Shown here in pieces: positions 5-7,206 of a stretch of 64,000 nucleotides of DNA. The stretch comes from Actinopolyspora xinjiangensis (GTDB lineage: Bacteria; Actinomycetota; Actinomycetes; Mycobacteriales; Pseudonocardiaceae). The stretch's first letter is position 1. Each line of letters begins with the position of its first letter. The translations under genes were made by a program, and so were the position numbers. The notes below the pieces were generated by a model, which searched no databases, was not told the DNA's origin, and saw only the letters and a program-made list of their open reading frames with translations. Location of the stretch: NCBI RefSeq assembly GCF_900104475.1, contig NZ_FNJR01000019.1, positions 1 through 64,000 of the forward strand. The letters are read 5' to 3'.

Positions 5-1356
5 TACTGCAACGGCGCTCAGAGTGGGTAGCCGCGTTGTTGGTAGTGGCAGTGTCGGGCTTGGTGGTGTGCGTCGTCGGCGCCAGCGTGACCAGGACCA
101 GACGTGGTCGGCGGGGTGTGGTGTTCGGGTGATGAGGTTGATCAACAGGCGACGGAGCTCTGCTAAGGTGTAGTCGATCATGCCCTGGTTGCTGACGCGG
201 TTTCCCCCTGTATGGCCTGGGTTTTCGCGACGGCTAGCCAGGCGAGGGCGAGCAGGGACAGGGTGGTGTGGGCGTACCAGGCTCGCCAAGAACGTGCTTG
301 GTAGTGGTCGAGTCCGGCCTCGTTGTTGGCCTGTTGGAAGCATTCCTCGACATGCCAGCGCGAGCCGGCGGTCCAGGCCAGGTCGAGCAGCCGGGATCGG
401 CGGGGCCCATAGGCGATGTAGTAGGCGATCTCGCTGGGGTCGCTGATCGAGCGTCGCGCCAGCAGCCAGCGACCCCGCCCGGGCGGCCAGGCCGTGCCCA
501 GCGGCACGCGGGCCCAGTCATACAGGCGTGGCCCGTGCCCACCGGCCCCGACCGACAGCCGCCGCCACGAGCCCGGCGAGAGTGTGGTGACGAGCTCGTC
601 GGCCCGGCGCGTGTCACCGCCGGCGGTGGTCAGGGTGTCGGTGCGTTTGGTGGCCAGCACGTAGGCCACATCACGGTGCTCGAGCCAGTCCCGCAGGTAA
701 TGCGCCTGCCCGTAAGCCTCATCGCCGGTGACCCAGGCGAACGGCACCCCGGCCTGCACAGCACGGTCGATCATGGCCTGGGCCTGCTGGGGCTTGGTGG
801 CGAAACCGACCTCGTCGGGTATCCCGGCCGCTCGGCACCGATCCCGGTCGTCAGTCCACGACCTCGGCAAATACAGCTCCCGGTCGATCAACGCATGCCC
901 GGACCCAGAGGCGTAGGCCAAAAAGGTGCCGATCTGGCAGTTCTCCGTGCGCCCCGCCGTGCCGGAATACTGCCGCTGCACCCCCGCCGAACGCGTGCCC
1001 TTCTTCACAAACCCGGTCTCGTCAACGATCAACACCCCGTCGGACTCGCCGAGATGCTCGATGACGTAGTCCCGCACGTCATCGCGGACCCCAGCAATGT
1101 CCCAGTCCGCCCGCCGCAACAGCCGCTGCATCCCGTCCGGACTGACCTCACCAGCCTGCTCGGCAATCGTCCACCCGTTCTTGCGCTCCAAGCCCGCGAC
1201 CAGGCCAGACACATACTCACGCACCCGCGCCCGCGGCTCGGAACGCACAAACCGCCCCGCAATCCGCGCGTGCACCCGCTCCAACTCCACCGAGATCACA
1301 TCCAGCACCACACCCACCACGATCCACTACCGACTCACACGAGTGCCGTTGCAGTA
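5..1356 (-). mobile_element. IS701-family insertion sequence, apparently intact
   Basis: The element is bounded by imperfect terminal inverted repeats. The left end reads TACTGCAACGGCGCTC at 5-20, and the reverse complement of 1341-1356 reads TACTGCAACGGCACTC, so 15 of 16 bases match. CTAA occurs at both 1-4 and 1357-1360 as a 4-bp direct repeat, which fits the YTAR target known for the IS701 family. One transposase gene fills the element. The full reading frame and preserved ends suggest a recent insertion. Confidence 0.88.
178..1320 (-). CDS. IS701-family DDE transposase
   Basis: This 380-residue protein starts at a GTG and is the only gene of the insertion sequence. It is expected to cut and rejoin the element ends. 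A first acidic residue lies in VDETGF near residue 98, a second in VTGDEAYG near 199, and the late Glu in WHVEECFQQAN near 325, giving a DDE catalytic triad in the expected order. The length is normal for the family and no frameshift is seen. The gene stops well inside the left repeat, leaving about 150 bases of non-coding left end. Confidence 0.92.
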   Translation of the reverse strand: MVGVVLDVISVELERVHARIAGRFVRSEPRARVREYVSGLVAGLERKNGWTIAEQAGEVSPDGMQRLLRRADWDIAGVRDDVRDYVIEHLGESDGVLIVDETGFVKKGTRSAGVQRQYSGTAGRTENCQIGTFLAYASGSGHALIDRELYLPRSWTDDRDRCRAAGIPDEVGFATKPQQAQAMIDRAVQAGVPFAWVTGDEAYGQAHYLRDWLEHRDVAYVLATKRTDTLTTAGGDTRRADELVTTLSPGSWRRLSVGAGGHGPRLYDWARVPLGTAWPPGRGRWLLARRSISDPSEIAYYIAYGPRRSRLLDLAWTAGSRWHVEECFQQANNEAGLDHYQARSWRAWYAHTTLSLLALAWLAVAKTQAIQGETASATRA

Positions 1357-5350: not shown

Positions 5351-6484
5351 TCAGCTGGACTCCACGGCGACTCCGCCGAGGTCGGTGCGCCGGAAGGTCT
5401 CCACCTCGGCCATCGGTGGCGCCTCGGTCTGCTCGGGCGCCGGGTACCCGGCCGCCAGCACGTAGAGCGGGGTGCTGCCGATGTTGTCCAGGCCCAGCCG
5501 TTCCGCGACGACCGAGTCGTGGAACGCCCCGGTCTGCGCCGGTCCGAGCCCCAGGGCGGTGGCGGTCAGCGCGAAGGTCTGCCCCAAGTGCCCCGCGTCG
5601 AGCAGCATCACGCGGTAGGAGCGCGGCGTGGGGTACTTGCTCAGCAGCCGGTCCACCACCGCGCTGAGCACCACCAGGAACGCCGCGCCACGCGCCCACT
5701 CCTGGTCCGCGCAGAAGTGGGTCGCGTCCTCCGGGGTGAAGCCCTCGGAGAGCAGTTCCAGCGAGTGCTCTCTGAGGTTGTAGTGGTACGTCCCCGGCCT
5801 CACCCCGGTGACGTTGCGGATCGCCACGTAGGCGTCCAGCTCCTGACGAGCCCCGCCCGCGGGGCTCGTGCGGCGGAACAGCGCGCAGCGTCCGCAGTCG
5901 ATGTAGTCCACCGGGGCGAACACCGTGGCGAGCAGCGCGCTCAACACCTCGAGCGGTACCGGTTCCTCGGTGTGGTCCCGGCGGGTGCGGCGCGCGTACA
6001 GCACCTCGTCGTAGGGGGTGGCGAGCTCCGGGCAGCGCGGCCGGGGCAGCAGAATCCGGTCGGCCTCCGGATAACCGGTGAACAGCACGAAGGGGGAATC
6101 GGATTCACCGCCCGACACGATGTTCGCCGGCTGCTCCGTGTCGGGGTACTTGACGTCCTGGGTGGCGTAGTGGAAGAAGGACGCCTCCGGGGCCCAGGTA
6201 CCCCACTGCCGGTCGAACCGTTCGTCGGACTCGGCCTCGGCGCTGCCCTCCGCCAGCAGCAACCCGTTCTCGTGCAACTGATCGACCGCGCCGGACAGGC
6301 TCTCCCCGGAGAGATGCCCCAGCTCCTCGGCCGCCTCCAGGGGATCGGTCCACTCCTCGAACGCGGAGAGGATCTCGGCCGCCACCGGGTGCATCGTGAG
6401 CGGATCACCGCCAGGATGCGGGTGGACGACGAAATTTCCCCCGTGCCAGTAACAGACCAGTCCGCGACGGCGACGCAATCGCAT
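5351..6484 (-). CDS. SagB-type (ThcOx/nitroreductase-fold) dehydrogenase
   Basis: This 377-residue protein has an N-terminal winged-helix-like region (about 1-80, including HPVAAEILSAFEEW and LHENGLLL) of the kind found at the front of SagB enzymes. A nitroreductase-fold FMN domain follows from about residue 160. Recognisable blocks are YARRTRRDH (FMN-phosphate region), NVTGVRPGTYHYNLREHSL, and SYRVMLLDAGHLGQTFALTATALGLG. The best-known SagB enzymes oxidise azolines in modified peptides; others act in unknown pathways. No cyclodehydratase (YcaO) gene is in the window. The ATG at 6482-6484 has GGAG six bases upstream. A tiny Trp-rich reading frame and a strong hairpin precede it on the same strand. 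Confidence 0.85.
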   Translation of the reverse strand: MRLRRRRGLVCYWHGGNFVVHPHPGGDPLTMHPVAAEILSAFEEWTDPLEAAEELGHLSGESLSGAVDQLHENGLLLAEGSAEAESDERFDRQWGTWAPEASFFHYATQDVKYPDTEQPANIVSGGESDSPFVLFTGYPEADRILLPRPRCPELATPYDEVLYARRTRRDHTEEPVPLEVLSALLATVFAPVDYIDCGRCALFRRTSPAGGARQELDAYVAIRNVTGVRPGTYHYNLREHSLELLSEGFTPEDATHFCADQEWARGAAFLVVLSAVVDRLLSKYPTPRSYRVMLLDAGHLGQTFALTATALGLGPAQTGAFHDSVVAERLGLDNIGSTPLYVLAAGYPAPEQTEAPPMAEVETFRRTDLGGVAVESS

Positions 6485-6532
6485 GAAGCACTCCGAATTC
6501 TCCGGCGTCGAAACAAGAATTCCCGATCAAGG

Positions 6533-6562
6533 TCGTGAGGCGGGGATTTCCCCGCCCCACGA
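6533..6562 (-). terminator. Strong hairpin between the Trp-rich peptide and the SagB-type gene
   Basis: TCGTG plus GGCGGGG (6533-6545, one A bulge position) pairs with CCCCGCC plus CACGA (6550-6562), giving a 12-bp stem with one A-C mismatch and a 4-base loop. It begins 12 bases after the peptide stop codon and lies 49 bases before the dehydrogenase start. It can act as a partial terminator giving more peptide than enzyme, or as an attenuator governed by translation of the peptide's Trp codons. No T-run follows. Confidence 0.65.
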
Positions 6563-6574
6563 CGGAAGTGATCA

Positions 6575-6661
6575 TCAGGACTGGCTCCACCACCAAACAA
6601 AGGGGCGCTCCTTGCGATCACTCCTGTTCACAGCGGCGATCCGCATGTCGATACTGCGCAT
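6575..6661 (-). CDS. 28-residue Trp-rich peptide: RiPP precursor or attenuator leader
   Basis: The second of two in-frame ATGs (6659-6661) is preceded by a textbook ribosome site, GAGGAGG, at 8-base spacing; the first ATG (6665-6667) is too close to it. The peptide is basic and polar for 20 residues and ends RPFVWWWSQS, with three consecutive Trp codons at positions 23-25. A compact ribosome-engaged peptide gene just upstream of a SagB-type dehydrogenase fits a ribosomally made precursor with a C-terminal aromatic core. The run of Trp codons followed by a hairpin also fits an actinobacterial trp-type leader peptide that senses charged tRNA-Trp. The sequence alone does not decide, but translation is well supported. 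Confidence 0.6.
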   Translation of the reverse strand: MRSIDMRIAAVNRSDRKERPFVWWWSQS

Positions 6662-7164
6662 TTTCATCACCTCCTCTCCACATCCGACGGGACGATGCGC
6701 CCACAATTGAGGCAGCACCACCACGGCCGGACAATGAGAAGGACGACCAATCACACCACAGGTGACAGGGAAACACTCGCATGTCGCAGTGAAACATATT
6801 TCACGAACCCGACACACCGGCAAGGAAATTATACTTGTTCCCGATGCCGCCCCGTGTGGAACGCGTGAACGAACGCGTCGGAAACGACGGACGAGGATAA
6901 TCCACTCCGGACGGATTTTCGCCGGCGTCCCTGTCGAGGCGGAGAGCCCGCGGCCTGCCCGGACGAGGGATCCTGCAGTTCCGGCCGCGAGCCCTCCGGT
7001 CGGGTTCCGAGGAGTACCGCCCCTCGGACGATCTACGCAACGGGCCCGCCGGGACTTCGTCGACTCGCCTCGGCGACGGCTCGCTCGGCGCTACCTCCCG
7101 CCGACTCCCCCCGGCAGGACCGACATCGAGCGGGCACGTCCGAACCCGATGGAGCACCAGCACG
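6662..7164. other. Upstream region of the peptide gene; no further gene seen
   Basis: About 500 bases hold no convincing reading frame. On the minus strand there is a TATAAT box (reverse complement of 6828-6833) without a clear -35, and a 6-bp-arm inverted repeat at 6789-6804, both about 130-170 bases upstream of the Trp-rich peptide. The remainder up to the palindrome at 7165 is featureless GC-rich sequence. Confidence 0.45.
6789..6804. promoter_or_regulatory. Inverted repeat GTGAAA-N4-TTTCAC
   Basis: GTGAAA (6789-6794) and TTTCAC (6799-6804) are perfect 6-bp arms around CATA. The repeat sits 128 bases upstream of the peptide start and just downstream of a TATAAT box on the minus strand, where a repressor could block transcription. 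No regulator gene is adjacent, so a partner cannot be named. Confidence 0.4.
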
Positions 7165-7206
7165 GTGGTGTGTGGTGGTTTTCGCGCGAAAACCACCACA
7201 CACCAC
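7165..7206 (-). terminator. Perfect 42-base palindrome at operon end
   Basis: Bases 7165-7185 are exactly the reverse complement of 7186-7206, centred on CGCG, with long runs of GTGGT on one side and ACCAC on the other. It starts 12 bases after the stop codon of the kinase ending at 7219, so it is most likely the terminator of the whole minus-strand polyol operon. The complete absence of mismatch is unusual for a terminator and could also make it a cruciform or protein site. Confidence 0.7.

Follow-up and report, generated by a model that had tools for sequence, protein, structure and literature searches.

In the 64,000-nucleotide stretch of Actinopolyspora xinjiangensis DNA analyzed here (the window), we found a gene for a 28-residue peptide, followed by a hairpin and a gene for a SagB-type dehydrogenase, and we hold with high confidence that peptide and dehydrogenase are a precursor-enzyme pair. 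The best explanation of the locus, to which we give a probability of about 0.72, is a minimal two-gene RiPP system in which a flavin oxidase acts on aromatic residues of the precursor core. Its membership among the RiPPs is well supported by its architecture, which consists of an encoded short precursor with a conserved leader and a variable core, and an adjoining modifying enzyme. Textbooks describe SagB-type enzymes as azoline oxidases working after a YcaO, and a widespread family of lone enzymes with aromatic precursors of 20-30 residues would show that the SagB family does other chemistry. The pair recurs in many actinobacteria without a YcaO, a sign of aromatic-residue peptide chemistry that has yet to be studied. 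So small a substrate-enzyme pair also bears on a question posed in a preprint, namely the role of nitroreductases in YcaO-free RiPP clusters (PMC12636437). Every feature of the peptide-SagB locus lies on the minus strand, as read directly from the DNA:

6670 to 6675, minus strand: ribosome-binding site AGGAGG of the precursor gene, read from the sequence, with 8-nt spacing to the ATG at 6661
6575 to 6661, minus strand: precursor peptide gene, 28 codons plus TGA, MRSIDMRIAAVNRSDRKERPFVWWWSQS, supported by similar frames in relatives and by its rank in a blind profile search
6532 to 6563, minus strand: hairpin between the precursor and SagB genes, its 14-bp stem including one G.T pair, with loop AAAT and no T-run
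6491 to 6494, minus strand: GGAG, probable SagB ribosome-binding site, from the sequence
5351 to 6484, minus strand: SagB-type dehydrogenase, 377 aa (PF00881, E 7.8e-20; TIGR03605 above cut-off; model pLDDT 91.2)
6215 to 6484, minus strand: SagB residues 1-90, predicted RiPP recognition element (RRE), a bbb-aaa winged helix
5435 to 6067, minus strand: SagB residues 140-350, nitroreductase/oxidase domain by likeness to ThcOx, McbC, BmdC, and AlbAB
5633 to 5638, minus strand: codons of Lys283-Tyr284, the proposed catalytic pair, present in 44 of the 46 enzymes in the alignment

The textbook ribosome site and 28-codon frame claimed in the initial annotation were confirmed by reading AGGAGG at 6675-6670, ATG at 6661, and the stop TGA at 6577-6575. 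A second in-frame ATG at 6667, which would yield 30 codons, is merely 2 nt from AGGAGG, and the start at 6661 aligns with the Met-Arg start of the peptides in relatives. Approximately residues 1-17 form the leader and residues 18-28 the core, which contains FVWWW, with Ser present and Cys absent. Pfam and NCBIfam searches with five precursors gave zero matches, and our literature searches, conducted mostly outside subscription papers, found no description of the precursor family. A blind profile made from 31 peptides, with the Actinopolyspora and Halosaccharopolyspora rows and L087 excluded, ranked the window frame first among 1199 stop-to-stop segments (E 0.0021; runner-up 0.076).

The same arrangement precedes the SagB orthologues of A. 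biskrensis (MRVITIQAAPVVRSDRKNKPFFWIWHHS), whose SagB is the nearest named one, Halosaccharopolyspora lacisalsi (MRTFAIQARPVVRQDRKASRFFWVWQHS), Amycolatopsis anabasis (MRAISINARAFVRQDRKASRWHWRWEYK), and Actinosynnema pretiosum (MRKISMKARPVIRLERSNQPNFYYWYNGDQP). Among the genomes of the family with a close SagB, 13 of 14 keep the frame, and the other has lost it together with SagB residues 1-102. Searching 390 genomes of the family with the precursor profile (21 first-look candidates scored per genome) gave 13 matches with E <= 7.1e-6, nine of which were themselves profile rows; all 13 lie directly upstream of SagB, and the next best match was at 1.2e-3. Similarly, strong matches in ten genomes of the genus were confined to the four (G000, G002, G004, and G009) that have a full-length SagB orthologue, with the next best at E 0.019. 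In another member, G003, SagB starts at about residue 103; precursor, hairpin, and the earlier SagB residues are missing together, and the equivalent of window positions 6814-6758 is fused directly to the remainder of SagB. Precursor, hairpin, and enzyme are conserved as one unit. Absence of the frame and its ribosome site from close relatives, which had been named beforehand as evidence against the proposal, was not what we found: relatives with a full-length SagB retain both, although their ribosome sites are partly so by construction (two scans demanded a site, one earlier scan did not). Conservation beyond Trp had likewise been proposed as the sign of a precursor, and the basic leader is indeed kept across relatives while the Trp codons are not. 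At the nucleotide level, a weak codon-substitution test counts against the proposal: changes in 17 chosen pairs fell on the three codon positions 86, 75, and 88 times, the third not being favored, and comprised 44 synonymous and 111 nonsynonymous codons; peptides in two of the 17 pairs (L081/L083 and L112/L115) are identical and differ only by synonymous changes. For 66 same-length pairs, the corresponding counts were 325, 264, and 355 overall and 183, 109, and 222 in the leader alone.

Related loci are found in Streptomyces, Amycolatopsis, Saccharothrix, Mycobacterium, Nocardia, Actinomadura, Nonomuraea, Nocardiopsis, and Micromonospora, among others (80 named loci). The SagB enzyme is widespread, yet not common, with alignment matches of E <= 1e-30 in 13 of 394 genomes of the class and 31 of 397 of the order. 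We recognized a precursor at 60 of the 80 named loci (57 in the main set, plus L100, L140, and L130, the last being the same locus as L057), choosing by eye for peptide likeness among short frames upstream of SagB; the precursors of L084 and L087 were taken from plain translations. The remaining 20 had no recognized precursor of these types: L099, L109, and L123 are YcaO-linked; the SagB match lacks the N-terminus in L103, L135, L145, and L149; L131 begins at a contig edge; L104, L113, and L137 yielded none; and L117, L119, L125, L127, L132, L139, L147, L153, and L154 are non-actinobacterial, with at most other candidate frames. At L052/L113 SagB is retained and no precursor was recognized. 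L140 carries two precursors in tandem (..REDRRTSGYGGR and ..RGDRRTLGWGNK), which lie about 425 and 301 bases ahead of a SagB whose match is incomplete.

We sorted 74 loci with a precursor into type A, with an aromatic core (40 loci, with L036 and L037 counted here; 37 distinct peptides), type B (17 loci; RRKKTR...LLNNHG or LLSNHPA and variants), a B-like kind (five loci), and type C (12 loci; e.g., IEIVED..LLHHPST). The enzyme tree (46 SagB rows and three outgroups) agrees with precursor type. The last 11 residues are free of Phe, Trp, and Tyr in all distinct peptides of types B (16) and C (11), nearly all of which have His there.

The SagB-type identity proposed for the dehydrogenase was borne out by the NCBIfam SagB model TIGR03605, at 108.1 bits against a cut-off of 78.4. 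The best NCBIfam model by E-value is TIGR04511, a putative peptide maturation dehydrogenase (9.4e-43), yet its 146.7 bits fall under the cut-off of 240. PF00881 is the sole Pfam family in the 377-aa protein, the remainder being the RRE-like domain and a linker, and the Pfam search showed no MNIO fusion. The N-terminal region is predicted to form the PqqD-like bbb-aaa domain of an RRE; Pfam PqqD did not match it in the window protein, and detection of the RRE by sequence is weak, many of the PDB profile matches being designed alpha-repeat proteins. The structural model predicts an enzyme made of an RRE for leader binding, fused with a ThcOx-like nitroreductase fold. Both exceptions to the Lys-Tyr pair among the 46 enzymes are YcaO-linked rows (L099 and L109). 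The genome has a single match to the window SagB.

RRE-oxidase fusions are already known. In the cyanobactin oxidases ThcOx and CyaGox (PDB 5lq4, 8pz5), ThcOx converts thiazolines to thiazoles (PMC10783134) and has additional RRE copies (PMC8795117), while the window locus is without a YcaO. The bacillamide oxidase BmdC (PDB 7ly4, 7ly7) is an RRE-like plus oxidase didomain, as is the window SagB, and its proposed general base Tyr260 appears to align with the Lys-Tyr pair; unlike the window enzyme, BmdC acts on a thiazoline during NRPS synthesis, and no leader peptide is involved (PMC8795117). The cyclodipeptide oxidase AlbAB (PDB 8uc3) shares the nitroreductase fold and makes alpha,beta-dehydro residues (PMC11055893), but it is a two-subunit filament with cyclic dipeptide substrates. 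The SagB-McbC enzymes of TOMM/LAP systems share the SagB homology above the NCBIfam cut-off, but the window locus lacks their defining YcaO cyclodehydratase and its core has no Cys. Closest in chemistry may be the Pseudomonas cluster of PflA/PflD and PosA, which likewise pairs a nitroreductase-family enzyme with a RiPP precursor in the absence of YcaO. Its PflD nitroreductase domain, as described in the preprint, makes Z-dehydro-Phe in a RiPP, and the authors raise the possibility that nitroreductases working without YcaO elsewhere produce further dehydroamino acids (PMC12636437). This reaction on an aromatic residue, itself already known, serves as an analogy for what SagB may do here, and it makes the initial annotation's claim of novelty for this enzyme type under both of its alternatives too strong. 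PflD carries an MNIO fusion, is accompanied by HEXXH and GNAT partners, and has a leader modeled as nitrile-hydratase-like (PMC12636437), whereas the window enzyme is RRE-fused, stands alone, and has a leader of about 17 residues.

The type A cores are rich in aromatic residues. Of their last 11 residues, 22.6% are Phe, Trp, or Tyr, compared with 1.7% of leader residues, and across the 37 distinct peptides the last 11 residues contain an aromatic residue in all 37, Trp in 20, and Cys in one. The aromatics also show a preferred spacing. After removal of near copies (31 of 40 cores kept), 34 aromatic pairs were at i,i+2 against 13.5 in within-core shuffles, with 0 of 2000 shuffles as high, and Trp-X-Trp occurred 15 times against 3.8; because the cores are related by descent, these figures are not strict probabilities. 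Pairs at i,i+1 were less strongly enriched (23 against 14.8), those at i,i+3 were not enriched (11 against 12.1), and an aromatic pair two apart is present in 20 of the 31 cores.

In the mechanism that we propose, the basic leader, with its alternating hydrophobic residues, would probably dock as a strand on the RRE (SagB residues 1-90). Residues of the aromatic core FVWWW would then be oxidized by SagB's own flavin domain. The likeliest reaction would be a two-electron Calpha-Cbeta dehydrogenation of Trp, Phe, or Tyr. We favor alpha,beta-dehydrogenation because there is no YcaO to make an azoline, and because PflD makes Z-dehydro-Phe and cyclodipeptide oxidases make alpha,beta-dehydro residues; by this analogy, we give dehydrogenation of aromatic core residues about an even chance of being the actual reaction. 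Without a YcaO or a core Cys, azole formation is excluded for the window strain within known chemistry. As the type B and C cores have no aromatics, a single family-wide reaction, if there is one, would not be restricted to aromatic residues. As a tentative wider picture, which we think less likely than not, there may be a large YcaO-independent SagB RiPP class, with the lone RRE-fused flavin enzyme as its simplest form, oxidation of every second aromatic in Ar-X-Ar, His-core sisters with JmjC or siderophore-type uptake genes, and a YcaO-linked offshoot that lost Lys-Tyr.

The enriched aromatics two apart (34 vs. 13.5; Trp-X-Trp 15 vs. 3.8) would also suit a different reaction by the same kind of RiPP pair, namely an i,i+2 aromatic crosslink, with Trp ring oxidation or an oxidative change at the C-terminus as further options. 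We consider such a reaction somewhat unlikely, as the relatives McbC, ThcOx, BmdC, AlbAB, and PflD all act by dehydrogenation in the sources consulted, and flavin-only crosslinking of aromatic residues in RiPPs was not found in our literature searches.

Alternatively, the peptide may serve as a scaffold that is later cleaved to give a small product (a modified amino acid, a cofactor, or a metal ligand), as with PQQ or the pearlins. The gene neighborhoods, in which Pfam names come from testing one member per cluster, speak on both sides. Blastp clustering of the called frames gave no third gene shared by the family's aromatic-type loci, apart from the synteny of near relatives, which in Actinopolyspora includes DoxX and MarR. 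Likewise, we saw no exporter common to the aromatic-type neighborhoods, as a scaffold would allow, and no common protease, which argues against cutting out. The two absences also weigh against the preferred reading, as these neighborhoods offer no shared candidate for releasing or exporting a modified peptide. Several type B loci adjoin PF01497, PF01032 (FecCD), or PF01794-cluster genes, in keeping with a small ligand, but the type A cores vary strongly, and a fixed small product would not need that. Overall, we regard the scaffold as an improbable reading, and modification of the aromatic core as the preferred one.

Other neighbors differ among the groups. The Nocardiopsis group has a methyltransferase and an MFS transporter nearby. 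In L084, L086, and L089 a P450-like gene follows SagB on the same strand (PF00067 tested in L086), and YYIYK and YYIFK occur in the cores of L084 and L086. The type B loci L049-L052, L114, L116, L118, L121, L126, L129, L131, and L148 (RRKKTR..LLNNHG/LLSNHPA where found) adjoin PF01497 binding-protein-cluster genes, often with a FecCD permease (PF01032), and a ferric-reductase-like gene (PF01794) occurs near type B loci; these neighbors suggest a metal- or cofactor-related product. The type C loci L058-L061, L133, L134, L136, L138, L141-L143, L146, and L150-L152, with His-containing peptides (..LLHHPST), mostly have SagB plus an MFS transporter; a JmjC protein is frequent there too (PF08007 in L150). 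The JmjC proteins NO66 and MINA53 hydroxylate His, and by analogy the type C JmjC protein could hydroxylate the conserved His.

The hairpin after the peptide frame is present as initially annotated, with corrected dimensions: the stem is 14 bp rather than 12 bp, the gap from the stop is 11 nt rather than 12, and the gap to the SagB ATG (6484) is 47 nt rather than 49. The 60 nt past the precursor stop fold with z = -5.4 relative to shuffles. A stem of at least 10 bp beginning within 25 nt of the stop was seen in 61 of 74 loci (shuffled mean 17.2, maximum 25 in 20 rounds) and not in 13, a count that may favor hairpins in that one precursor scan took up to three candidates per locus by folding past the stop. 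Stem sequences vary among genera, while the stem position is conserved. A local scan of 6200-7000 found no intrinsic terminator with a T-run, and no 8 bases of the 60 nt past the stop hold more than four T in 67 of the 74 loci; as T-runs are rare, the hairpin is unlike an ordinary intrinsic terminator. Its role may be message stability or partial termination, and it would probably fix the ratio of precursor to enzyme message.

The tight spacing and strong RNA structure would also fit a translated leader that serves solely for translational coupling to SagB, its peptide sequence being irrelevant. We find this very unlikely, as amino-acid motifs are conserved across genera and the matching peptide frame in L100 is divergent from SagB.

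The initial annotation had offered two alternatives, a YcaO-free aromatic-core two-gene system and a tryptophan-sensing attenuator in which a ribosome stalls at the three Trp codons and the RNA re-pairs ahead of SagB. The first stands on conservation, the predicted RRE, and a genome without YcaO. The second, suggested by three adjacent Trp codons with a hairpin 11 nt downstream, would be aided in the window strain by RNA folding that hides the SagB start, with the SagB site pairing to the peptide frame at 0.60 versus 0.22 after shuffling. Across 40 loci, however, this pairing exceeds 0.5 in seven, and its mean of 0.27 against 0.19 in shuffles is slightly raised and inconsistent; moreover, Trp is found in the last 11 residues of only 20 of 37 type A peptides, the conserved part being the leader. 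The stretch read around trpE in the same genome had no WW leader, which is a weak comparison. With Trp codons not conserved, RNA pairing inconsistent, no terminator, and relatives with full-length SagB keeping the frame, we rejected the attenuator and consider its likelihood negligible.

An ordinary azole (TOMM) pathway with its YcaO located elsewhere might be read from the SagB family, the Ser in the core, and the YcaO found somewhere in 33 of 44 genomes with related loci, but we give it almost no weight given that YcaO (PF02624) is absent from the 99.93% complete window genome, occurs in flanking sequence at only 3 of 120 loci (L035-L154; searched with a 23-sequence YcaO profile), and would meet Cys in one of 37 type A peptide ends. 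A distant YcaO is rejected for the window genome, where its absence is firm; for the family at large the absence is not firm, and there we did not reject it.

The three flanking YcaOs belong to L099, L109, and L123, whose SagBs are close to the YcaO-free clade and are immediately preceded by a YcaO (in L099, PF02624 at E 9.5e-37). L099 and L109 are nested in the tree, with His-His replacing Lys-Tyr, and the frame-shifted L123 also seems to be without the pair. Short frames ahead of the YcaO at these loci, e.g., MGYPAAWDHSDTLD..LLAEAGIAERR, could be precursors with an N-terminal core. L136, a type C locus, shares its contig with two YcaOs situated about 8-11 kb downstream of SagB, and among loci with a YcaO near the examined range it alone had one on the same contig beyond the flank.

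Short acidic frames, e.g., MHDEDDDEFLLELEAEYKAQ..., precede the more distant SagBs of L062, L063, L072, and L073, and are possible precursors of further families. In L064, L066, L069-L071, and L074, the product of the gene before SagB resembles an ATP-grasp peptide ligase. For this group, branch 6 of the graspetides is offered as a comparison (PMC8939145). Upstream of the SagB locus, just past the stop of an FGGY kinase gene, the window has a perfect 42-base inverted repeat (7165-7206; 21-bp arms, no spacer), which probably ends the sugar-catabolism transcript. A 380-aa frame at window positions 178-1320 encodes what we take to be an IS701-type transposase.
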